From: Candidatus Zixiibacteriota bacterium
Lineage (GTDB): Bacteria > Zixibacteria > MSB-5A5 > WJJR01
DNA: 57,254 nt
Reading direction: 5' to 3'
Assembly: GCA_040752595.1 (NCBI GenBank)
Contig: JBFMGX010000047.1
Coordinates: 49,935 to 107,188, forward strand
Below are positions 1 to 50,269 of this stretch, one piece after another. The stretch's first letter is position 1. Every line of letters starts with the position of its first letter. The notes below the pieces were generated by a model that made no database searches, was not told the DNA's origin, and worked only from the letters and a program-made list of their open reading frames with translations. Made by a program: the position numbers and the translations under genes.

Positions 1-388
1 GATCGCGGTTTCTCAATGGGTCCCTTTCATCCGCGATCAGAGATCGCGGCCACACGACTGCCACAGTTGTGGCAACCCGCCACCTCGCCCTTGTTGCGTG
101 CCCGCGATCTGTGATCGCGGTTTCTCAATGGGTCCCTTTCATCCGCGATCAGAGATCGCGGCCACACGACTGCCACAATTGTGGCAACCCGCCACCTCGC
201 CCTTGTTGCGTGCCCGCGACCCGTGATCGCGGTCCTCTGACGATGCCGTCCATCCGCGATCAGAGATCGCGGGCACACGACTGCCACAATTGTGGCAACC
301 CGCCACCTCGCCCTTGTTGCGTGCCCGCGATCTGTGATCGCGGTTTCTCGATGGGTCCCTTTCATCCGCGATCAGAGATCGCGGCCAC
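1..388. repeat. Tandem array of ~112-bp palindrome-rich units
   Basis: About 3.5 copies of a unit of roughly 112 bp. The palindrome CCGCGATC-AGA-GATCGCGG begins at 31, 143, 254 and 366, giving periods of 112, 111 and 112. Each unit also holds a second palindrome, CCGCGATC-TGT-GATCGCGG (degenerate in the third unit), and a CCACAATTGTGG-type palindrome. The array abuts the 3' end of the helicase gene and reaches the left edge, so its full length is unknown. Short open frames across it are by-products of the repetition. Confidence 0.9.
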
Positions 389-10346: not shown

Positions 10347-10762
10347 GCTGACCTCCCCCGTCCCGCTCGCAGCGGAACGGACTTCGGTGGTGAGGGTGAG
10401 ATGTTGCCGTTCGAACCGATCCCGTCAGTAACTCGACATGAACACGCGACCGGTCCGCGTAGCGCGCACCGGCCAACGTGCTTTTACGTGGCGCACGCAG
10501 CGATGTTGCACGTCGTTGTCATCTCTTAACAGAGCGACCCGAGTTCGGCAGTGTCTCCATACATGAAGTGTCACTTCAACACTCTCGCGCATCCGTCGTG
10601 ACAGCAATGGACAAGCCCCGAATCTCCCACCGCCCGACTCGTTCATACCCACTTTCCCGGTCTTCGTTTTCGACCCCGCTTCGGGGGTGATTGTCTCAGG
10701 ACCGGGAAGGGTGGGAGGCGGTGTGACGCGATCGCCGATCGCGCACGGCCGCAGAATGATCC
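10347..10762. promoter_or_regulatory. Divergent intergenic region with palindrome and nested RNA-like stem
   Basis: A 416-bp gap between the minus-strand FlgD-Ig gene and the capsid block. It holds the perfect palindrome TGAAGTG-T-CACTTCA (10564-10578), a possible operator. A large nested inverted repeat spans about 10648-10715: an outer TTCCCGGTC/GACCGGGAA stem encloses a CCCCG-CTT-CGGGG hairpin. A CGCGATC-GCC-GATCGCG palindrome lies at 10727-10743, 20 bp before the prohead protease start. No clear promoter was found. Confidence 0.5.
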
Positions 10763-11653
10763 ATGAGCATACTGATCGGTTCCTTGTCTGCCCGGCCGCT
10801 ACGCTTCAGCGAGCAACAAGACGCGGTCTCTGGTGATGGGTACCGCGATCTGATTGAGCAGATCAACCAGCGCGTTCGTCCACCGGCGCCGGTGACCCCA
10901 GACGACGTCCACATTCGTGCGCTGCGTCTCGTCTCCGATGACGTCAACGATCACGGCGGCCGCTTTCCGCGTGAGGAGCACGACCGGCTGTCCGCGCTCT
11001 TGATTGACACCCCGGTCCTGGTCGGGCATGACCGCACCCGGCTCCCGGTGGCCCGCAACTTCGCCGCCCGCTGCGTCTCCGAAGGGGATCGCCAGTGGAT
11101 CGAAGTCTGGTTCTATTGGCTGCGGGGCGATGGACCGTTTCAGGATCAACTGGCGGGCGACATCGATGCCGGCGTGGTCAAGGAGGGCTCGATCGGCTTT
11201 GAGTTTCGGCGTCCGCAATGCTCGATCTGCGGTCGCGACATCCGGACCTGCGAGCATATCCCCGATCAGGAGTACATTGGAGACGACGGCACCCTCCGCA
11301 CGGCCCATTACGAATACCGCGACATCGTCCGTGTCTTGGAGACGTCGCTGGTCTACCGCGGTGCGACACCGGGGACGCACTTTGCGCGTCCGCCGCTGTT
11401 CGGCAAGCCGCACGTTGAGTCGCCAGCACTGTCCGGTCCTGCCGGTGCTGTCGGTGACGCAATCATGGCGCGCTCGCTTTACCTCTACAGCACGGGCGGC
11501 CGTCCACAGCAGGCGTTTCGACTCCCTCTCCGGGTGTCTCTTCACGCGCGGTGCCGCCGTTCACCGTTCGCACGGCGGCGTCGTGCCATCGGACTCGCCC
11601 TCCGTGCGATCTATGGCAACGGCACGTCGCCATGGGGAAGGAGCACGTCGTGA
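10763..11653 (+). CDS. Phage prohead maturation protease (HK97 type)
   Basis: A 296-aa protein resembling HK97-type prohead serine proteases, which cleave scaffold and capsid proteins during head assembly. VLVGHDRTRLPVARNF (catalytic His probably H89) and VVKEGSIGFEF (nucleophile probably S143) are the two family blocks. An inserted C153-x2-C156...C163-x-H165 motif may bind zinc. Residues after about 235 are Arg-rich and poorly conserved in appearance. The ATG at 10763 has no strong Shine-Dalgarno. The stop overlaps the next start (GTGA), so the genes are translationally coupled. Family assignment rests on motif recognition only. Confidence 0.7.
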   Translation: MSILIGSLSARPLRFSEQQDAVSGDGYRDLIEQINQRVRPPAPVTPDDVHIRALRLVSDDVNDHGGRFPREEHDRLSALLIDTPVLVGHDRTRLPVARNFAARCVSEGDRQWIEVWFYWLRGDGPFQDQLAGDIDAGVVKEGSIGFEFRRPQCSICGRDIRTCEHIPDQEYIGDDGTLRTAHYEYRDIVRVLETSLVYRGATPGTHFARPPLFGKPHVESPALSGPAGAVGDAIMARSLYLYSTGGRPQQAFRLPLRVSLHARCRRSPFARRRRAIGLALRAIYGNGTSPWGRSTS

Positions 11654-11961
11654 GCCGAACGGCCAAATCGAGCCCAAAGTACACTCCCGTCTCCTGGTGG
11701 CGACCGGCGTTGACGGTCCTGGTCGTCGTCACCAGTGCCCTGGCTGCCTATTACACGACGGTCTATGGCATTCGCCTGACCGTCACCGAGAAGGCCGATC
11801 GGGTCACCGTGGACCAGATTGACCGACGCTTGGTCGAAATCGAGACAACGTTGCGCACTGATGTGGCCCGTCGCCGTGATCTGGCGTCGTTGGAAACGGC
11901 GCTCGACGCCCGGCTGACGCGCATCGAAACCCTCTTGGAGGAAAGGAGAATGTCACGGTGA
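11650..11961 (+). CDS. Small membrane-anchored coiled-coil protein of the capsid block
   Basis: A 103-aa protein. The GTG at 11650 follows AAGGAG and overlaps the upstream stop by 4 nt. It has one transmembrane segment (about residues 14-38) and then a heptad-like amphipathic helix (residues 45-100). The gene order (protease, then this, then decoration and capsid genes) leaves open a scaffold-like, holin-like or membrane-tethering role. No family is recognised. Confidence 0.6.
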   Translation: MSRTAKSSPKYTPVSWWRPALTVLVVVTSALAAYYTTVYGIRLTVTEKADRVTVDQIDRRLVEIETTLRTDVARRRDLASLETALDARLTRIETLLEERRMSR

Positions 11962-12320
11962 TCGTCCCCGAGGCAGCACCCGTCCCCACGGTCGATCGGG
12001 CCTTGCGCGGCGCAACCGACAAGACACCCGCGCCATCGGCCGAAGAAAACTGGCAGACGCTGCGAACTCTGCTGCGGGAACGGATCCGTCGCCGCTGGCT
12101 GGCTTTGTCCCGTCTGTCCCCGGAGGCGTATCCCGGCGAGGTGCTGGAGGCGCGATTGTCGGCGATCGCCGACGACGGCATGGCGCTCTGGCGCTGCGCC
12201 GAGGGCCTCGATCGCGCCCTCGATGTGGCTTTCGCGCCGCGGGCCTGTCGCTGCGGTCGCGACATCACTCCGGCCAAGACGACTCCCGCTCCGCACTCAG
12301 ACGAGTTCAAGGTTCGTTGA
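11958..12320 (+). CDS. Hypothetical protein of the capsid block
   Basis: A 120-aa, mostly helical, Arg-rich protein whose GTG start overlaps the upstream stop (GTGA). It ends with a CRCGRDI motif near residue 97, which echoes the CSICGRDIRTC motif of the upstream prohead protease. No family is recognised. It is followed by a CCGCGATC palindrome at 12333-12351. Confidence 0.55.
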   Translation: MIVPEAAPVPTVDRALRGATDKTPAPSAEENWQTLRTLLRERIRRRWLALSRLSPEAYPGEVLEARLSAIADDGMALWRCAEGLDRALDVAFAPRACRCGRDITPAKTTPAPHSDEFKVR

Positions 12321-12332
12321 CCGGGAGGCGAT

Positions 12333-12351
12333 CCGCGATCGGAGATCGCGG
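12333..12351. repeat. CCGCGATC palindrome in capsid block
   Basis: Perfect CCGCGATC-GGA-GATCGCGG between two capsid-block genes. It is the same family as the left-edge array. Confidence 0.9.
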
Positions 12352-12410
12352 GGACGCACCACGACACGCATGTCACCTGTAACGTCACTGCGATGCGATA
12401 GGAGGATCCT

Positions 12411-12833
12411 TTGACTGTTCGCGATCACAATCTGGAATCGATCGGCGAGGTCTTCGCCACATTCAAGGTCAAGCAGACCGGCGGCGTGGACGATCTCACC
12501 GACGCACACATTGGCAAGGCGGTCACGTCAACCGACTCCCATGAGGTCGGTCCGGGGACCGACGGCGCCATCCTGTTGGGTAAACTCGTCGACCTGACGC
12601 TGGAGGACCGCGACACCGGCCAACGGCTGGCCACGGTCCAGATCGGTGGCGTCTGTCGGCTGCCGATCACAACGACGTATCCCGTCGTGGGCAACCGCGT
12701 CGTTTGCGGTGCCAATGCGACCGTCAAGCAGGCGCCCGCTCTGGTCGGCAACGACCCTGCCGGCGGCAACATCGCCCGCGGTACGGTCTTGGCCGTCAAC
12801 GGCACCACCGACTGCACGATCCTGCTCAACTGA
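12411..12833 (+). CDS. Probable capsid decoration protein (DUF2190-like)
   Basis: A 140-aa all-beta protein. The TTG at 12411 is chosen because a strong GGAGGA (12401-12406) lies just upstream. The pattern of an early Gly-rich turn, a central LVDLTLED...VQIGGVCRLP and a C-terminal RGTVLAVNGTT stretch resembles small head-decoration or head-fibre proteins of the DUF2190 type, which sit on the outer capsid surface. Its place directly before the major capsid gene fits. The assignment is by pattern only. Confidence 0.5.
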   Translation: MTVRDHNLESIGEVFATFKVKQTGGVDDLTDAHIGKAVTSTDSHEVGPGTDGAILLGKLVDLTLEDRDTGQRLATVQIGGVCRLPITTTYPVVGNRVVCGANATVKQAPALVGNDPAGGNIARGTVLAVNGTTDCTILLN

Positions 12834-12856
12834 CATCTGTCAGCATGATGGCGTGC

Positions 12857-12920
12857 CCGCGATCTCCGATCGCGGTTGACAAAGGGAAGTCACGAGCACA
12901 GGGCTGCTGACCTACACCAG
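12857..12920. repeat. CCGCGATC palindrome plus degenerate GAGCACAGGGCT repeat
   Basis: Perfect CCGCGATC-TCC-GATCGCGG at 12857-12875, followed by a decayed copy of the GTCAGGAGC family (GAGCACAGGGCTGCTGACC). Both lie between the decoration and capsid genes. Confidence 0.75.
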
Positions 12921-12937
12921 TGTAAAGGACACGTATC

Positions 12938-14044
12938 ATGGATCTCGACAAACTCTTCACTGAAACATCCCCCGCACTTCTGGCGCAGGCGACCGCCGAG
13001 CCCCGCACCGAGGGGACGGTGGATTTGCGCCGTGCCCAGCAACTGACGATCACGCGCGACACCTACCTCGAAGCCGAGTCCCGGGGATTGACGCTCTCGG
13101 AGCTGCTGGAGTCAACCGACTATGACCCATCACCGCTCGATTCGCCATTGGACGCCTTTGAGCGCCAATTGGCCGCGCGCGGCATCCGTGTCGGCGGCGC
13201 CAATCCGCTGACCGTCGAGTTGTTCTATCGCGGTGCCCCGGCGTTGCTGCCGGAGTTCATGCTGCGTGAGATTCGTCACGGGCAGTCGCTGCGCCCCGAG
13301 CTCAACGGGCTGGTCGGCTCCTCGTCGCATGTCCCCGGCAACCGCTACACGCCGTTCGACATCGAAGCCCAGGCCGGCGATGCCCGCTGGTCGATGCGTC
13401 CCGTCGGCGACGGCGCCAATGTCCCGGCCGTCGTCGTGACGGAACGTGTCAATTCGATCGACGTCCGCGACTACGGCCTGGCGCTGAAGGCCTCTTACAA
13501 GGCCCTGCGCCACCGCACTACGCCGCAGTTCAAGGTACTTCTGTGGTACATCGGGTATCGCATGCAGGTCGACAAACTGGGAATGCTGGTCGACGTGCTC
13601 ATCAACGGCGACGGCAATGACAACGCCGCCACGGTCATCAACACCGCGTCCTCCGGCACGCTCGCCTATGCCGACCTCGTCGCCTTCTGGGCCGAGCTGC
13701 ACCCCTTCGAGATGAACACGATGATCTGCTCGAAGGACAAGATCAAGACGATCCTCACCATGACCGAGTTCAAGGATCCGCTCGCGGGGTTCCGTTTCCA
13801 GGGGACCGGCGAACTGGTCAGCCCATTGGGCGCCTCGCTGGTGCGTTCCGATGAGGTCGCCACCGACCGCGTCATCGGGATGGACAAGCGCTTCGCCGCC
13901 GAAGAAATCGTCACGCAAGCGCTGACGGTCGAGTACGACAAGATCATCGAGCAGAAGTTCGAGGAGGCGGTCATCTCCGAGTCCGTGGCCTATGCCAAGG
14001 TCGTCCCCGATGCCGTCAAGGTGCTCGACTCGGTGTGGACGTAG
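12938..14044 (+). CDS. Phage-type major capsid protein (HK97-like fold predicted)
   Basis: A 368-aa protein that builds the head shell in tailed phages and related particles. An N-terminal helical region (residues 1-105) could be the part removed by the prohead protease. The core includes LMLREIRHGQS-like and GYRMQVDKLGMLVDVLINGDG segments, and the C-terminal FAAEEIVTQALTVEYDKIIE region looks like the A-domain end of such proteins. It is too long and different in pattern for an encapsulin. Downstream lie a composite palindromic repeat and a tail-like gene. The frame is fully open. The call rests on sequence appearance and on neighbours. Confidence 0.65.
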   Translation: MDLDKLFTETSPALLAQATAEPRTEGTVDLRRAQQLTITRDTYLEAESRGLTLSELLESTDYDPSPLDSPLDAFERQLAARGIRVGGANPLTVELFYRGAPALLPEFMLREIRHGQSLRPELNGLVGSSSHVPGNRYTPFDIEAQAGDARWSMRPVGDGANVPAVVVTERVNSIDVRDYGLALKASYKALRHRTTPQFKVLLWYIGYRMQVDKLGMLVDVLINGDGNDNAATVINTASSGTLAYADLVAFWAELHPFEMNTMICSKDKIKTILTMTEFKDPLAGFRFQGTGELVSPLGASLVRSDEVATDRVIGMDKRFAAEEIVTQALTVEYDKIIEQKFEEAVISESVAYAKVVPDAVKVLDSVWT

Positions 14045-14076
14045 ACGTCTGTCACAAGACATCCCTCGGTGAATCG

Positions 14077-14145
14077 GTAGGGGCGACCCGGTGGGTCGCC
14101 CTCTTTCCTCCGCCACCAAAGGGCGAGGCACCGCCTCGCCCCTAC
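14077..14145. repeat. 69-bp composite GTAGGGGC...GCCCCTAC element
   Basis: Terminal inverted repeat GTAGGGGC/GCCCCTAC enclosing two hairpins, GGGCGACCC-GGT-GGGTCGCCC and GGGCGAGGC-ACC-GCCTCGCCC, separated by a 19-nt variable spacer. The element at 27691-27759 has the same design and length in reverse orientation. Confidence 0.85.
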
Positions 14146-14184
14146 GCCGTTGCCGGTTACCGGAATCCCAGAAACGGAACCACC

Positions 14185-15612
14185 ATGATTCACGCGCTGA
14201 TCGACACCAGCACAGCCGCCGCCCCAACCGGTCTGGCGACGCAGCACAAGCTCTTCCGCGTCGAGAAGGGACCATTCGCCGGTCGGCTCTTGGCGCTGTT
14301 TGCGCGGACGCCGACCAACCTGGCGCTGTCGTACACGAGCGACCCATACACGTCATGGCTCGACCCCGGCGATTTCGTCACCGACGCGGCGGACCTCCCG
14401 TTCGACGCGGTCGCCGACGAAAACGCCGACGTCTGGGTGGCGTACACACAGCAGACGACCGGGGCCCTGATCTGTGTCCGGCTGATCTTTGTCAATGGTA
14501 CCTGGGTGGCGCAGACGCCGGCCACGGTGTACGATTCGCCGAGCTCGACCAACAAACACCCTACGGTTCTGAAAGACATGTACGGCCGGATCTGGGTGGC
14601 CTGGACCCGGGAGGACAGCGGCACCTACACGCTGCGCGTGAAATCGTCGTTGGATCTGGGTCAGACATTCGGCAGCGGCCCCACCGACGCCGGCACCGAT
14701 TTGTCGGGGAACACGTCATCGTGTTACGGCACGCTGATCGCCCGCGCCAACTACATTCACTGCCTGTTCGCGATCGCGGGCACGACCCTGAAGAACCGCG
14801 AGATCGAAATCGACGCCGCGCTCTGGAACGCCGCGGTGACGCTGTACACCGGCGCCGGCCTCGGCAGCGACCTCGCCGCCGCGGTCTCCTCCGAGGGTAT
14901 GCTCGGTGCCCTCTTCGCCGCCGACAGCAAGTTGTACTTGAAGGAATACGACGGCGCAGTCTGGGGCGCGCTCCAGACCGTCAGCACACAACCGGCGGCA
15001 TCGCCGGCGCTACGGTACATGGGCACGGCGCCCTACGCTCTCTTCCTGCACAATGTCGGCACGGATCAGAACGAACTGTACGAGTCACATCGTGTCGGCA
15101 GCTCCTTCGCGGCTCCGACTTCCGTGCTCAGCCAGGCCCAGCCGTTTGCGTCGGTCTTCTGCTTCGACGCCGACGCTGGGACACCATACGCCGACGTCAC
15201 CACGGCGGCCGCATCAAGCGCCGCCGCCGATGTCTTCCATCCAACGTCCGAAAAGCTGCTCCAAGCGGTCGGCGACGCGGTCTTCCTCGGATCGGACGAC
15301 CGTTTCAGTTTCATCCGCATTCTGCTGTCGACTGCCGGTGCCGGTGGAGCCGTGACATGGTCATACTGGAACGGGGCGTGGACGGACTTCATCCCTGCCT
15401 CCGGCGCGTCGGGCTTCGATGCCGTCAATGACGGCGTCCGGCTGTTCAACGACGGGATCGGAACGCCCGTCGATTGGCAAAAGACCGTCATCAATGGTGC
15501 CAATCGCTACTGGATCCGCGCCGTCGTCGGCACGGCATTCACCACCGCCCCGGTCGGAACGCAGCTCACCGCGGTCCCCAACATGAGCGGCGTCGTACCG
15601 CGGGTGGCATGA
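14185..15612 (+). CDS. Tail-like beta-propeller protein of the capsid block
   Basis: About 475 aa; the ATG at 14185 lies after the repeat element. Residues 1-340 contain repeated blocks such as DENADVWVAYTQQ and DMYGRIWVAWTRED, typical of BNR/sialidase-like propellers. The last 130 residues carry a VTWSYWNGAWTDF...DWQKTVINGANRYWIRAVV module of a kind seen in phage baseplate or tail-associated proteins. No signal peptide is visible. A virion surface or receptor-binding role is inferred. Confidence 0.5.
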   Translation: MIHALIDTSTAAAPTGLATQHKLFRVEKGPFAGRLLALFARTPTNLALSYTSDPYTSWLDPGDFVTDAADLPFDAVADENADVWVAYTQQTTGALICVRLIFVNGTWVAQTPATVYDSPSSTNKHPTVLKDMYGRIWVAWTREDSGTYTLRVKSSLDLGQTFGSGPTDAGTDLSGNTSSCYGTLIARANYIHCLFAIAGTTLKNREIEIDAALWNAAVTLYTGAGLGSDLAAAVSSEGMLGALFAADSKLYLKEYDGAVWGALQTVSTQPAASPALRYMGTAPYALFLHNVGTDQNELYESHRVGSSFAAPTSVLSQAQPFASVFCFDADAGTPYADVTTAAASSAAADVFHPTSEKLLQAVGDAVFLGSDDRFSFIRILLSTAGAGGAVTWSYWNGAWTDFIPASGASGFDAVNDGVRLFNDGIGTPVDWQKTVINGANRYWIRAVVGTAFTTAPVGTQLTAVPNMSGVVPRVA

Positions 15613-15624
15613 GGGGAGTCGAGC

Positions 15625-16449
15625 ATGGCATTCACATCACCCGAACTCGTACGCGCCCATCTCGACGTTCTCCGTTTGGGAGAAACGCGGATCGACAACC
15701 ATGGCGTCGTCCTCAACGGGACGACCCCGGTCCAACTCCCGCACACCGGTCTGGTCGAGGGATCGCTCGTTGTGAAGTGCCGCAGGGGAGAGGCACCGAC
15801 TCGGGAACTCGCTGTCCTGGCCGATGCCTGGGTTTCTTTGTCGCATGACTCACTGGTTCCCGACAGCGTTGTGATTGCTTCCGACAGCTCGCTTGGTGTC
15901 GTCTTCCAAGAGAACGTCGACTTCATCGTCGACTACACCGCCGGGCGCGTGCGACGCATCGTCGACGGAGCCATCGGCGGCGGCCAGACGGTTGTCGTAT
16001 GGTTCGAGTACCACCATGTCTTCACGGCCGGGGATGATTACACCATTACGTACACGTCCGGCCAGTTGGCGCGCCGCAGCACAGGCGCCATCGCCGACGG
16101 GCAGTCGGTCCTCGTGGAGTACGCCGTGGCCAATGGCTTTGTCTCCGACGCCGTGATCGAGCAGGCGATGGCCGAATCGGGCGAGGCGGTCCTGGCGATG
16201 GTCGATTCACCCGACGAGGAGCAGCCGGCGCCCGCGCTGGTGATCGGCGCCACGCATTGGACGGTGGCGGCCGTGGCGCGGATGCGTGCGGCCGCCGCGC
16301 TCGCCTCATCCGCCGCCGACAGCGCCGCGGTGCGGAACATCACCCAGGCCTGGCTCGACCTAGCCGACCGCTATGAGCAATCGGGTCGGCAGTTCCTTTC
16401 GCGCTTTGCCGCACCGGTGCCGTCCCTGCAATCGTTGCGCCACGGCTAA
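15625..16449 (+). CDS. Hypothetical virion-like protein (possible connector or adaptor)
   Basis: A 274-aa protein whose ATG lies 12 bp after the previous stop, with GAGGGGAG upstream. The first 180 residues are beta-rich, with two similar blocks (FQENVDFIVDYTAGRVRRI and TAGDDYTITYTSGQLARRS). The last 90 residues are helical and Ala-rich. Such a two-part layout and its position suggest a structural or head-tail joining protein. No family is recognised. Confidence 0.5.
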   Translation: MAFTSPELVRAHLDVLRLGETRIDNHGVVLNGTTPVQLPHTGLVEGSLVVKCRRGEAPTRELAVLADAWVSLSHDSLVPDSVVIASDSSLGVVFQENVDFIVDYTAGRVRRIVDGAIGGGQTVVVWFEYHHVFTAGDDYTITYTSGQLARRSTGAIADGQSVLVEYAVANGFVSDAVIEQAMAESGEAVLAMVDSPDEEQPAPALVIGATHWTVAAVARMRAAAALASSAADSAAVRNITQAWLDLADRYEQSGRQFLSRFAAPVPSLQSLRHG

Positions 16450-16484
16450 TCGTCGGCAGAACACTCGATCTCCGCACGATGAGG

Positions 16485-16581
16485 ACAAGGGGCTTCAGCC
16501 CCTTGTGGATCTGTGCCACATCGTTGACACGGAGATCGGCAAGACCGCACCCAACCGTAGGGGCACGGCGTGCCGTGCCCA
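16485..16581. repeat. ACAAGGGGCT hairpin plus GTAGGGGCACGGC hairpin in capsid block
   Basis: ACAAGGGGCT-TC-AGCCCCTTGT at 16485-16506, then GTAGGGGCACGGC-GT-GCCGTGCCC near 16558-16581. Both families recur at distant host loci in the window. Confidence 0.85.
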
Positions 16582-16595
16582 CTTGACCGTGTATT

Positions 16596-16970
16596 ATGAA
16601 CACAACCTACGCCTACCTGACCGGCCGACGTGCCTGGTTTGTGCCCGCCGTCTCCATCTGGGGCGAGCTTGGGGCCGAGACCATCGATGCACTGGCCACC
16701 GAAACCGATGATGCCGCCACACGCGTCGTCTTTCAGCGCTTCACGATCGGCGGTATGGCGCAGGACATCGCCTTCTCGGCGCTCACCGACCATCGCGGCA
16801 ACTCGCTGCCGGATCAGATCGATCATCCCGTCGTGATCCCGGTCGCCAAGAATGCCGTGAGCATCGCTGTCATCGGAACGCCCGGCAACACGTCATTCCG
16901 CGTCGGCAAAGGCGAGGCCGCCGCCGAGGATGGCATGGCCGACCTCTGGATCATCGAGGCGGGCTCATGA
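16596..16970 (+). CDS. Hypothetical protein of the capsid block
   Basis: A 124-aa beta-rich protein without a signal peptide. Its last four bases overlap the next small frame (ATGA). No family is recognised. Its size and place before a small possible tail-assembly protein would allow a tail-tube or tail-terminator role, but nothing in the sequence proves it. Confidence 0.5.
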   Translation: MNTTYAYLTGRRAWFVPAVSIWGELGAETIDALATETDDAATRVVFQRFTIGGMAQDIAFSALTDHRGNSLPDQIDHPVVIPVAKNAVSIAVIGTPGNTSFRVGKGEAAAEDGMADLWIIEAGS

Positions 16971-17101
16971 GCGGGACCGGCCCGATGCGGCTCCCGCCGT
17001 GGTCGCAGGTCTGCTCCCTGGGGTTTCGCCTCCGACCTCGCCGACTGGCGGGGTCGCAATCGCGCGAGGCATTCAATGAAATGGGAACTGTTGGAGGATG
17101 A
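16967..17101 (+). CDS. Possible small tail-assembly protein
   Basis: A 44-aa frame coupled to the preceding gene by an ATGA overlap and itself overlapping the next gene by 26 bp. The layout W..........LGFRLRP..L....SREAF..M resembles the short tail-assembly chaperones of gene-transfer-agent-like clusters, which sit at this kind of position. Support is weak: there is no Shine-Dalgarno and the match is only by eye. Confidence 0.3.
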   Translation: MSGTGPMRLPPWSQVCSLGFRLRPRRLAGSQSREAFNEMGTVGG

Positions 17102-17474
17102 CCGGTCCGTGGATGTCGACCGCTCAGTTAGTGCCGTTCCCGCACCCCATGAGATCCCCCAAAGACCGCTCTCCTCCGATTCGTCGCATCGTGACCTTGA
17201 GCTGGTCGAGCAGCTCCTCGACCGCTGCTGGCGGGAAATCGACTCCAGCGATCTCAACGTCAAGCTGACCGACCTTGTGCGTCTGCTGGAATTCAAGGAG
17301 AAGCTCCGTCCGGCCGTCGAAGCGCAGAAGACCTTCTGGGCGATGGTGGACCAAATGCGCCGGGAGGAACTGGCACAGTTCAGTGATGGGTGCCCGGACG
17401 AACCAAGACCACCGACTGATGAGGATGACAGCACAAATGACAGTGGACATCATGCAACCGAGGATCACGAGTAG
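17076..17474 (+). CDS. Hypothetical acidic helical protein of the capsid block
   Basis: A 132-aa protein with a central helix-rich region (residues 40-98, LVEQLLDRCWREIDSSDLNVKLTDLVRLLEFKEKLRP without breaks) and an acidic, disordered tail. It overlaps the upstream small frame and, by 38 bp, the following secreted-protein gene. No family is recognised. Confidence 0.45.
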   Translation: MKWELLEDDRSVDVDRSVSAVPAPHEIPQRPLSSDSSHRDLELVEQLLDRCWREIDSSDLNVKLTDLVRLLEFKEKLRPAVEAQKTFWAMVDQMRREELAQFSDGCPDEPRPPTDEDDSTNDSGHHATEDHE

Positions 17475-18129
17475 AACGGCGCTGGTGCTCGGCTTCCTGG
17501 TGGTCGTTGTGATCGCACCGTCCGGCATTTGCCACGCCGCAACATTCGGCAACACCGGCCTGCAAACCTCGACGCTGAACACCGAGAACCAGATTACGGC
17601 GGGACGCTTCGTAGCGCCCTCCGGCGGCACCGCCGACAGCATCACCGTCTACCTCGATTTCGGCGGCGACTACGACGTTTTCAAGATCCGCTGCGCGCTG
17701 TACGACTACAATGATGGAACGCCGGCGCTCCTGGATACCTCTGCCGAACTACAGGTCAACTGCGGTGTCATCTGCGTCGACGGCTGGCGGTCTTTTGCCC
17801 TCTTGAACCACGCTTCGCTGGTATCGGGCGCGACCTATGATCTGTGCGTCTGGATCAGCTACGGTACCACCGACAATGCCGGAGTACGGGTCAATTCCGG
17901 CCAATCCGGCAACTTCACCGATTATCAGAGCGCCACCTACGGCGTTTGGCCATCCACGTTGACCGAATCGACACTCAACGGCTTCCTGATGTCGATCTAC
18001 TGCACGTACACCCCCGGTGGAACCACCGGCGCACCGTCGCGGCGCCGGCGACTGACAGAAGCTCCGGGTCAGTCTCCGAAACCTGAGTTGTCCCTCGCAC
18101 AAGCAGGGTATTCACATGATGAAGATTAA
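17437..18129 (+). CDS. Secreted hypothetical protein at the end of the capsid block
   Basis: About 230 aa from the ATG at 17437; the ATG at 17452 is an alternative. A clear signal peptide spans roughly residues 10-32, with cleavage near ICHA-ATF. The body is a beta-sandwich-like domain (TVYLDFGGDYDVFKIRCALYDYNDGTPALL ... YDLCVWISYG). It overlaps the upstream virion-like gene by 38 bp and the downstream gene by 14 bp, so it appears to belong to the same operon. A signal peptide on a gene coupled to capsid genes is unusual. Confidence 0.55.
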   Translation: MTVDIMQPRITSRTALVLGFLVVVVIAPSGICHAATFGNTGLQTSTLNTENQITAGRFVAPSGGTADSITVYLDFGGDYDVFKIRCALYDYNDGTPALLDTSAELQVNCGVICVDGWRSFALLNHASLVSGATYDLCVWISYGTTDNAGVRVNSGQSGNFTDYQSATYGVWPSTLTESTLNGFLMSIYCTYTPGGTTGAPSRRRRLTEAPGQSPKPELSLAQAGYSHDED

Positions 18130-19810
18130 CGGCGTTCTCCTGATCGCAGCGGCATTCAGCGTCGCGGGGCCGGCCGTCGCGGGAATCGTCCACAATGACG
18201 GCACGGCCTATGAGGATTCGCTGGCCGTCAGTTTCCAATTGCTGGACTCGCTCGGCAATCCCGTGCCGCGCTCCTCCGGGGATTCGCTCTGGTTCTTCGT
18301 CTACGACCCGGGCGGGACGCTGGTGTACACCGATTCGGCGCGCCTTCTCAGCGACGCCAAGATCACCTACCGGCCGCTGAATTTCCGCGCCAAGAACCTG
18401 TCCTTCATGTCCTACAAGCGGGCCATCGCCGACATTGACGGAGCCGGTGTCAACGGCACATACAAATGGACGCTGGTCGCCGGCGATTCGTCGCTGGCCC
18501 TGCTGTCAACCTACAACGGGGAGTTCCAAGTTGTAACCCAAGGCAATCTCGCTGGAATTCTCGATTCCATCAACAGGAACTCGATGGTGAGCGGTGATGC
18601 CGCTGCCGCCGACAATCTCGAAGCCATGCTCGACGGGACAGGGGGAGTCGACCTCTCGCTGCGCCGTCTGCGAGTCAACAACACCAGCAGCGCCGGGCCA
18701 GCCGTCTCGTGCTCGTCACAAGTGACAAGCGCCGCCGGATTCTACACGACGGGAACGCTGGTCGCACCTCACACGGAGGTCATCCGTGTCAAGGCGGGCG
18801 GGACTGGGAACCAAAACGGATTCTGGATTTCTGGGTTGGGCAGCGCTCACGGCATCGACATCGATGGCGGCAGTAACGGTAGCGGCATTGTCGCGTATGG
18901 ATATGGTGCGGGGAGTGGTATCAAGGCACTGTCCCAAACCAGCGGACAGGGAATCTATGCTGCGGCGGGCGGTACTGGCGCGGGATTGCGAGTCGAGTCT
19001 TCCAACGGGTCCGCCTTGTATGTCGTCAGCGGCGCGGAATTCGGCGACAACGAACCGGCTGTGAAGATCGAGGTTGTGGAGAATGATTCGGCTGCCGTCG
19101 TTCTCTCTTCGTCCACGAAAGTCCCGGCGGGATTTCGCTCCGTTCTGGCGGCGTCGGATTCGATCAACGCCCATGCCCCACACAGCGACAATTGGGCCGC
19201 CGTCGGTGGTGGCGGGACCGGGGCGATCCCCTGCACCCTGTCCGTCGCCGCCGTCATCGGGACCGACACTGTGGCCGTCGCGAGTGCCTTCGTACGCGTC
19301 TACAATGCCGGCGAGACCGCGACCGCCGCGTTCGGCACGACCGACGCCTCCGGAAGGGCCATCTTCGCGCTGGAGGCGACGACGTACCATGCCTACGGCT
19401 ACCTCAGCGGATACATCTTCGCGCCCCAGCCGACCATCGTCGCAGTGGGGACCTCAGGGGGGCATGATACGCTGTGGGCCACACCCTTCGATCCCGGCAC
19501 GCCGGCGACTGCCGAACTGTGCCGTGTCTATGGCTGGGTGTCGAACCTCTCCGGCAACGAACTGTCGGGGGTCATGGTCCGAGCGCGCATTCCCGAGTCG
19601 CCGCTGCGATACCAGAATGTTGTCATCTCCCCCTATGAGCGTCAGACGACCACGGATTCTGCCGGGCACTGGTTCATGGACCTGTACCCATCGTCGGTGC
19701 TGACGCCCAATTCGACCCGCTACGAGTTCGAAATCCGGCTCGAATCCGGCGCGGTTCTACGCCGCCGGATCAGCGTTCCGGATTCCGCCTCGTGGCTGCT
19801 GACCTGGTAA
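18116..19810 (+). CDS. Secreted fibre-like protein with carboxypeptidase-regulatory-like domains
   Basis: A 564-aa protein. The signal peptide ends near AVAG (residue 23). Residues 24-140 form an Ig-like domain. Residues 160-340 are a Gly/Ser-rich repetitive stretch (NGFWISGLGSAHGIDIDGGSNGSG and similar) of the type found in fibres or adhesins. The C-terminal 200 residues contain two carboxypeptidase-regulatory-like beta-sandwich modules (VRVYNAGETATAAFGTTD... and VYGWVSNLSGNELSGVMV...). It overlaps the preceding gene by 14 bp. It could be a surface adhesin or a tail fibre that has acquired a signal peptide. Confidence 0.5.
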   Translation: MMKINGVLLIAAAFSVAGPAVAGIVHNDGTAYEDSLAVSFQLLDSLGNPVPRSSGDSLWFFVYDPGGTLVYTDSARLLSDAKITYRPLNFRAKNLSFMSYKRAIADIDGAGVNGTYKWTLVAGDSSLALLSTYNGEFQVVTQGNLAGILDSINRNSMVSGDAAAADNLEAMLDGTGGVDLSLRRLRVNNTSSAGPAVSCSSQVTSAAGFYTTGTLVAPHTEVIRVKAGGTGNQNGFWISGLGSAHGIDIDGGSNGSGIVAYGYGAGSGIKALSQTSGQGIYAAAGGTGAGLRVESSNGSALYVVSGAEFGDNEPAVKIEVVENDSAAVVLSSSTKVPAGFRSVLAASDSINAHAPHSDNWAAVGGGGTGAIPCTLSVAAVIGTDTVAVASAFVRVYNAGETATAAFGTTDASGRAIFALEATTYHAYGYLSGYIFAPQPTIVAVGTSGGHDTLWATPFDPGTPATAELCRVYGWVSNLSGNELSGVMVRARIPESPLRYQNVVISPYERQTTTDSAGHWFMDLYPSSVLTPNSTRYEFEIRLESGAVLRRRISVPDSASWLLTW

Positions 19811-27694: not shown

Positions 27695-27759
27695 GGGCGA
27701 GGCGTGGCCTCGCCCTTCGTCCCGCGCACGGGGAGGGCGACCCACCGGGTCGCCCCTAC
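27691..27759. repeat. 69-bp composite GTAGGGGC...GCCCCTAC element
   Basis: GTAGGGGCGAGGC-GTG-GCCTCGCCC, 19-nt spacer, GGGCGACCC-ACC-GGGTCGCCCCTAC. It is the inverse-oriented counterpart of 14077-14145. It supplies the stop codon of the upstream peptidase gene. Confidence 0.85.
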
Positions 27760-49564: not shown

Positions 49565-50269
49565 ATGCCGACGGCACGAGCGCAGCGGCGCCTCTCGAAA
49601 CATGATCTGAAGACCGACAGTTTTACGACCTCGATCTTCGCCGCGCGCGAATGGGTCGAGGCGAATCTCCGAACGGCGTTGATCGTTGCCGCCGGGGTCA
49701 TCGCGATGGCCGCGATTGTCTGGGGCGTTGTCGCTTGGCGCAGCGCCCAGACCCGCGAGGCGATGGCTCTCTTCGGAGAAGCCGGTGTGGAAATGCGCTC
49801 CGGCAACCCCGCCGTGGCGATCGCCCAGTTGCAGAAGGTCCTCGATGAGCATTCCGGCGCCAAGGTGGCGGGACCGGCATGTTTCCAGTTGGCCGAACTG
49901 CAGTTTCGCCAACGGAACTTCGATGACGCCCGCGTGCTGTTCCAGCGCTATCTGGACGATTACGGCGACGATCCCATGTTGAAAGCCGCGGCTTGGGCCG
50001 GTCTGGGGGCGGTCGATGAGCAGGCCAACTCGCCGGAGGAGGCCAGCGCCAAGTTCCAGAAGGCCTATGAGGTTGACCCCAAGGGATTCCGCGCTCCCGA
50101 GTACCTTCACATGGCGATCCGCGCCGCCATCACCGCCAATGACTCCACCAAGGCGCTTGATACATTCACGACGCTGCGGAGAGAGTTCCCCCGGGAATCT
50201 CAGACCCTCAATCAGGTCCGGCAGGCATTGATCGAACACGGTTACCTGGATCCCGGCGCGCGCCTGTAG
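49565..50269 (+). CDS. Membrane-anchored tetratricopeptide-repeat protein
   Basis: 234 aa. A single transmembrane helix at residues 38-58 leaves the N-terminus in the cytoplasm and the remainder outside. At least three TPR-like helix pairs follow (residues 65-200; for example AMALFGEAGVEMRSGNPAVAIAQLQKVL with a break, then FQLAELQFRQRNFDDARVL). The layout is like YfgM/ancillary SecYEG-translocon proteins, but identity is not proven. AGGAAAGG precedes the ATG. Confidence 0.7.
   Translation: MPTARAQRRLSKHDLKTDSFTTSIFAAREWVEANLRTALIVAAGVIAMAAIVWGVVAWRSAQTREAMALFGEAGVEMRSGNPAVAIAQLQKVLDEHSGAKVAGPACFQLAELQFRQRNFDDARVLFQRYLDDYGDDPMLKAAAWAGLGAVDEQANSPEEASAKFQKAYEVDPKGFRAPEYLHMAIRAAITANDSTKALDTFTTLRREFPRESQTLNQVRQALIEHGYLDPGARL

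Follow-up and report, generated by a model that had tools for sequence, protein, structure and literature searches.

A phage-derived head and DNA-packaging locus conserved across Zixibacteria, probably a gene transfer agent-like element

The capsid block and its genes

The DNA analysed here, referred to as the window, is a stretch of 57,254 nucleotides from a genome of Candidatus Zixiibacteriota, in which a block of phage-type capsid genes on the forward strand is flanked by recN, der and plsY and ends at position 19810, upstream of der. All frames of the block are open, and overlaps of 4 nt join the protease gene to gene B and gene B to gene C; the decoration protein and the major capsid protein (MCP) come next, followed by genes F to K. 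Gene A (10763..11653) encodes a prohead-protease-like protein (phrog_16951, 2e-15) and stands beside the MCP gene in every family whose clusters were fetched. The product of gene B (11650..11961) is a small transmembrane protein with an N-terminal hydrophobic segment, matched by profile in 108 fetched loci and showing the hydrophobic N-terminus in 73 of these, while the small protein encoded by gene C (11958..12320) belongs mainly to the window's own family, with BLAST matches in only 4 of the 20-kb stretches from 20 relatives, all of family f1. Gene D (12411..12833) encodes a decoration or virion structural protein (phrog_4588, 5e-4); it is syntenic in all fetched loci, and its orthologue in locus L029 matches the same family at 1e-7. 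Gene E (12938..14044) is the MCP gene, with a match to the major head protein family phrog_3922 at 1e-56, and PF25209 (Phage_capsid_4) is matched by 19 of 32 MCP orthologues, at best with 1.8e-10. An earlier note, made from the DNA letters, had placed a protease, a probable decoration and a capsid gene here with short overlaps and intact frames, which is confirmed, the stated positions included.

The putative HK97 fold of the MCP rests on these sequence families, because the prediction of its structure was too poor: the AlphaFold2 model reached a pLDDT of 51.5, and Foldseek returned E-values above 0.8, many of the listed chains being HK97-type capsids. Profile searches of the PDB with MCP and portal gave zero matches.

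Downstream of the capsid gene, gene F (14185..15612) encodes a beta-propeller protein with a lectin/sialidase fold, modelled by AlphaFold2 with a mean pLDDT of 95. Its Foldseek matches include PLL/PHL lectins and sialidases, and the third in the list is chain M of the LME-1 phage portal-tail complex, at a low TM-score; F may be a receptor-binding or short-tail component. Gene G (15625..16449) encodes a protein resembling head-to-tail connectors or adaptors (partial matches to phrog_807 and phrog_18315), with apparent Ig-like repeats, and it is probably a head-completion protein, since in other classes its homologues are neighbours of D and MCP (3e-68 in L216). Gene H (16596..16970) encodes a small virion-associated protein with syntenic orthologues across families and a dN/dS below 0.4. 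Homologues of the small protein encoded by gene I (17076..17474) lie between portal and the large terminase subunit (TerL) in families f4, f17 and f18 (L036, L092, L094, L150, L178 and L090; profile E-values from 1e-8 to 4e-12), at the place where a small terminase is expected, which weakly suggests that I could be one.

The last two genes, J (17437..18129) and K (18116..19810), encode exported proteins with signal-like N-termini, which are hydrophobic in 17 of 23 and 46 of 50 orthologues, respectively; K is fibre- or adhesin-like, with a weak CarboxypepD_reg match in a relative. Such Sec-signal-like N-termini within a phage-derived cluster (17437-19810) are odd for virion parts. In other families K is followed by a small membrane protein that is holin-like by its sequence character alone and that matched no family model. 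Among the genes of the cluster, none was recognised as coding for a tail tube, a tape measure or a baseplate, and PHROG and Pfam scans of the block in the window recognised no integrase or replication gene.

Host repeats in the gaps

Short repeats occupy several intergenic gaps of the block. The palindrome GCGATCNNNGATCGC, without strand assignment, lies upstream of the block at 10728..10742 and again in the gaps at 12335 and 12859, and it occurs at 63 sites genome-wide, a control with the reversed pattern giving 0. A second repeat family, AAGGGGCT..AGCCCCTT, is found at 16487 and has 7 copies in the window where 0 are expected, while a third palindrome, at 14077, recurs as a perfect copy once, at 27735. 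The view that the gap palindromes are genuine host repeats is thereby upheld. At the left edge of the window (33-382) stands a dense GCGATCNNNGATCGC array, which runs on to position 49587 of the contig (C47), beyond the window.

Packaging genes on the same contig

Neither terminase nor portal is encoded within the capsid block. A profile search of the genome located both on the window's own contig but beyond the window, the portal gene at C47:1517-2845 and the TerL gene at C47:2832-4196; TerL lies upstream, and its end is separated from the protease start by 56.5 kb. The earlier note was right that packaging genes are absent from the block. Yet these genes are not lost: they are relocated on the same contig and conserved across the phylum, and the search for orphan terminase and portal genes that the note had proposed found both. 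A capsid without packaging functions was accordingly ruled out. In the TerL of the window's genome, Walker A (GNRWGKS), Walker B (FDEAAFE) and the STP motif are intact, as are the aspartates of the nuclease, and in the PDB the TerL profile matches phage terminases of solved structure.

In 9 of 20 related loci, portal (phrog_3753, 5e-22) and TerL (phrog_2, 2e-38) are directly upstream of the protease, and in most other Zixibacteria families they immediately precede it, so that head and packaging genes form one cluster of ~13-14 kb, which leaves no space for integrase or replication genes. Where MCP and TerL were found on one contig, they lie at most 8.2 kb apart in 56 of 65 genomes; the 9 genomes in which they are further apart include that of the window, and the split also occurs in other families. 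In RBG-1 (G010; L030, L091), MCP and portal are kept and TerL was not found by profile; in G010, several exported repeat proteins are encoded between portal and protease.

These findings bear on the proposal, also made in the earlier note, that the capsid gene serves a nanocompartment. Encapsulins are HK97-type shell proteins kept by their hosts, and an encapsulin-like compartment that has lost DNA packaging would account for the lack of any visible packaging gene within the window and for the lineage RBG-1 with its undetectable TerL. Unlike in encapsulins, however, portal and terminase motor are conserved in Zixibacteria: 113-116 of 133 genomes have them, the motor and nuclease motifs being intact, and they co-evolve with the MCP, which makes a nanocompartment very unlikely.

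Distribution and inheritance across Zixibacteria

Among the 133 genomes of the source phylum, MCP was found in 112, TerL in 116 and portal in 113; at least one of the three is present in 125 genomes, all three in 98 and none in 8, where most genomes are metagenome-assembled and an absence may reflect assembly loss. The three genes are nearly always single-copy, and their frames are open except in two TerL matches, each interrupted by one stop. Of 254 control genomes from outside the phylum, 8 matched at first, and these 8 belong to other class-wide sets, described below. Across families, the comparison of 20 genomes revealed the recurrent order portal-TerL-A-B-D-MCP-F-G-H-I-(J)-K-holin-like, with local swaps, H preceding G in some families, for example. 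Furthermore, the site near recN and der is kept in the window's family, and a complete prophage at this site, which had been named beforehand as evidence against a retained particle, was seen in none of the relatives examined.

Trees, built by quick searches from sampled genomes, cover MCP (40 rows, 16 families), TerL (44 rows, 14 families) and portal (45 rows, 14 families). In all three, the number of label changes is the fewest possible, and each GTDB family represented by several rows makes up one whole side of a branch. Distances correlate between MCP and the housekeeping GTPase Der (Mantel r 0.73) and between TerL and portal (0.95), with 0 of 2000 permutations as high, and MCP distances are 0.67 times those of Der, the capsid protein thus evolving more slowly. 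Among the listed pairs, dN/dS is 0.013-0.14 for MCP and 0.05-0.14 for TerL, with G, H and K generally above these, values which are pairwise and, at dS > 1, rough only; conservation is strongest in head and motor, not in the fibre-like K. Relaxed selection, another sign that might have spoken against retention, is not what these low ratios indicate. Judged from these genomes, the locus is inherited vertically by nearly every sequenced Zixibacteria genome and is under strong selection. The reading of the block as a retained, domesticated phage-derived particle is strongly supported by its single-copy presence throughout the phylum, its synteny, the family-congruent trees and the low dN/dS. A decaying prophage remnant, for which the split locus alone could be adduced, has a negligible probability in view of frames that are open almost throughout and of the strong purifying selection.

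Relatives outside the phylum and among viruses

The same MCP occurs outside the phylum in 13 of 14 genomes of one class (that of G275), in 9 of 13 of a second (G287), in 4 of 6 of a third (G186 and G329) and in both genomes of the class of G139; by its sequence matches, it is class-wide in at least three classes beyond Zixibacteria. The clusters from these classes (L259-L278) hold decoration protein, MCP and G together with portal and protease in reshuffled orders; two of the classes also have TerL, next to G or portal, and one has a small terminase. For the class of G287, an apparent absence of TerL was rejected: the search with the Zixibacteria profile was empty for lack of reach, because the TerL that the cluster does hold belongs to another branch of phrog_2. 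When the outside classes are included in the MCP tree, each class forms one clade, and Zixibacteria, two outside classes (cY and cZ) and G139 together fall into one clade (support 100), in which none of the 25 viral contigs is placed. The class-wide MCP sets may go back to one origin, to several domestications or to transfer between classes.

A scan of IMG/VR with the single MCP sequence found no close free phage, and a scan with the MCP profile found 27 contigs, of which one (L220) is a Zixibacteria fragment and the others are distant (27-42% identity). Contig L220, catalogued as viral (IMGVR_UViG_3300027896_005586), is a Zixibacteria GTA-like cluster reaching from portal to F, with an MCP 61% identical. 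The phages with phrog_3922/PF25209 capsids (L221-L246) share with Zixibacteria a portal-protease-decoration-MCP block of the same families; their MCPs, in contrast, are only 27-42% identical, homologues of F to K were not found in them, and they fall outside the chromosomal MCP clade except for L221 and L222, whose placement is weakly supported. A further sequence, deposited as 'Bacteriophage sp.' from human faeces (MT835508.1, 1-46673; L181), encodes SecY, methionine aminopeptidase and RpoA next to a TerS-TerL-portal-protease-MCP set; on its gene content it is a piece of bacterial chromosome, and possibly DNA packaged by a GTA.

The phage-type character of all core genes and the related blocks in IMG/VR could also reflect an ordinary temperate prophage lineage that infects Zixibacteria very frequently. 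Such a lineage hardly fits the near-universal single copy, the family-congruent trees, the site fixed near recN/der within the window's family, the gaps that carry host repeats, the packaging genes at a separate locus, the cluster without visible integrase or replication genes and the MCP clade free of viral contigs, and we regard it as extremely improbable.

Interpretation as a gene transfer agent-like element

On the genomic side, a gene transfer agent (GTA) is a vertically inherited, selected, phage-derived head and DNA motor without visible propagation genes (PMC9662315). The Zixibacteria locus is of tailed-phage origin, as seen from MCP, portal, TerL and protease, it is transmitted vertically, and in some genomes, the window's among them, it is spread over more than one host locus. 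A deeply conserved, independently domesticated GTA-like element is the best explanation of these data; we put the probability that the block in the window is the larger part of such an element, resident in the Zixibacteria genome, at about two in three, and the phage-derived particle locus as a whole is probably an ancient, undescribed GTA. The literature searched, which is short of subscription papers and preprints in many cases, yielded no account of a Zixibacteria GTA or capsid.

In the proposed mode of action, MCP and protease would form a small head, into which TerL would pump DNA through the portal, and G and H would seal the head and serve as a short or minimal delivery end. The beta-propeller F, possibly together with the exported K and J, would bind cell surfaces, and the holin-like protein of other families might aid release. 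The packaged DNA would be mostly that of the host, because no replication, integration or excision genes were seen with the cluster and its parts lie at separate loci.

The same head and packaging genes would look identical in a phage-derived particle that packages host DNA without transferring it, for example a killing particle like PBSX; no complete tail was recognised, and K, J and F could serve as weapons or adhesins. The cluster, however, is without tailocin-type sheath, tube and baseplate genes, and it is the head and motor that are most conserved, the fibre-like K being less so, which leaves this alternative unlikely. The GTA-like reading can be extended to one ancient GTA lineage that was domesticated while several phyla were splitting or earlier. 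This lineage would be active to this day in Zixibacteria as well as in at least three further classes, its gene order reshuffled between classes, and would deliver DNA via a minimal tail with beta-propeller and exported fibres; the wider scenario is tentative and less likely than not.

Comparison with known systems and meaning

The main cluster of RcGTA-type elements spans ~14 kb, similar to the Zixibacteria cluster. The formally recognised GTAs comprise three families, Rhodogtaviriformidae (RcGTA-type), Bartogtaviriformidae and Brachygtaviriformidae, mainly from Alphaproteobacteria and Brachyspira (PMC9662315). Like the locus described here, they have Caudoviricete-type head and packaging genes that are chromosomally fixed, inherited vertically and located at more than one locus (PMC9662315). 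Compared by description and from genes alone, the Zixibacteria locus differs in that it belongs to other phyla, spans a whole phylum and further classes, encodes the exported K and J and the beta-propeller F and has no recognisable long-tail genes.

A resemblance in layout is also offered by FpGTA of Faecalibacterium, a compact TerS-TerL-portal-head operon at two loci with no obvious tail, for which its authors suggested a short-tailed type and demonstrated experimentally particles with ~9 kb of DNA (PMC12946183). Again compared by description, the two systems share the compact head-packaging operon, the second locus and the lack of an obvious tail, whereas FpGTA has a genus-level range in a Gram-positive genus and its particles have been observed, the Zixibacteria locus being phylum-wide and known from its genes. 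PBSX of Bacillus subtilis, in turn, is a chromosomal phage-like particle that packages host DNA, does not inject it and acts as a tailocin (PMC12946183), in contrast to the Zixibacteria cluster, which has no such tail genes.

Viral databases contain GTA-like loci of this kind as 'phages', and the GTA reading yields predictions for existing virus-particle metagenomes. If it is true, domesticated DNA-packaging particles of phylum age would be kept by almost the whole of an uncultured phylum, and programmed gene exchange would likely be a core trait of Zixibacteria.
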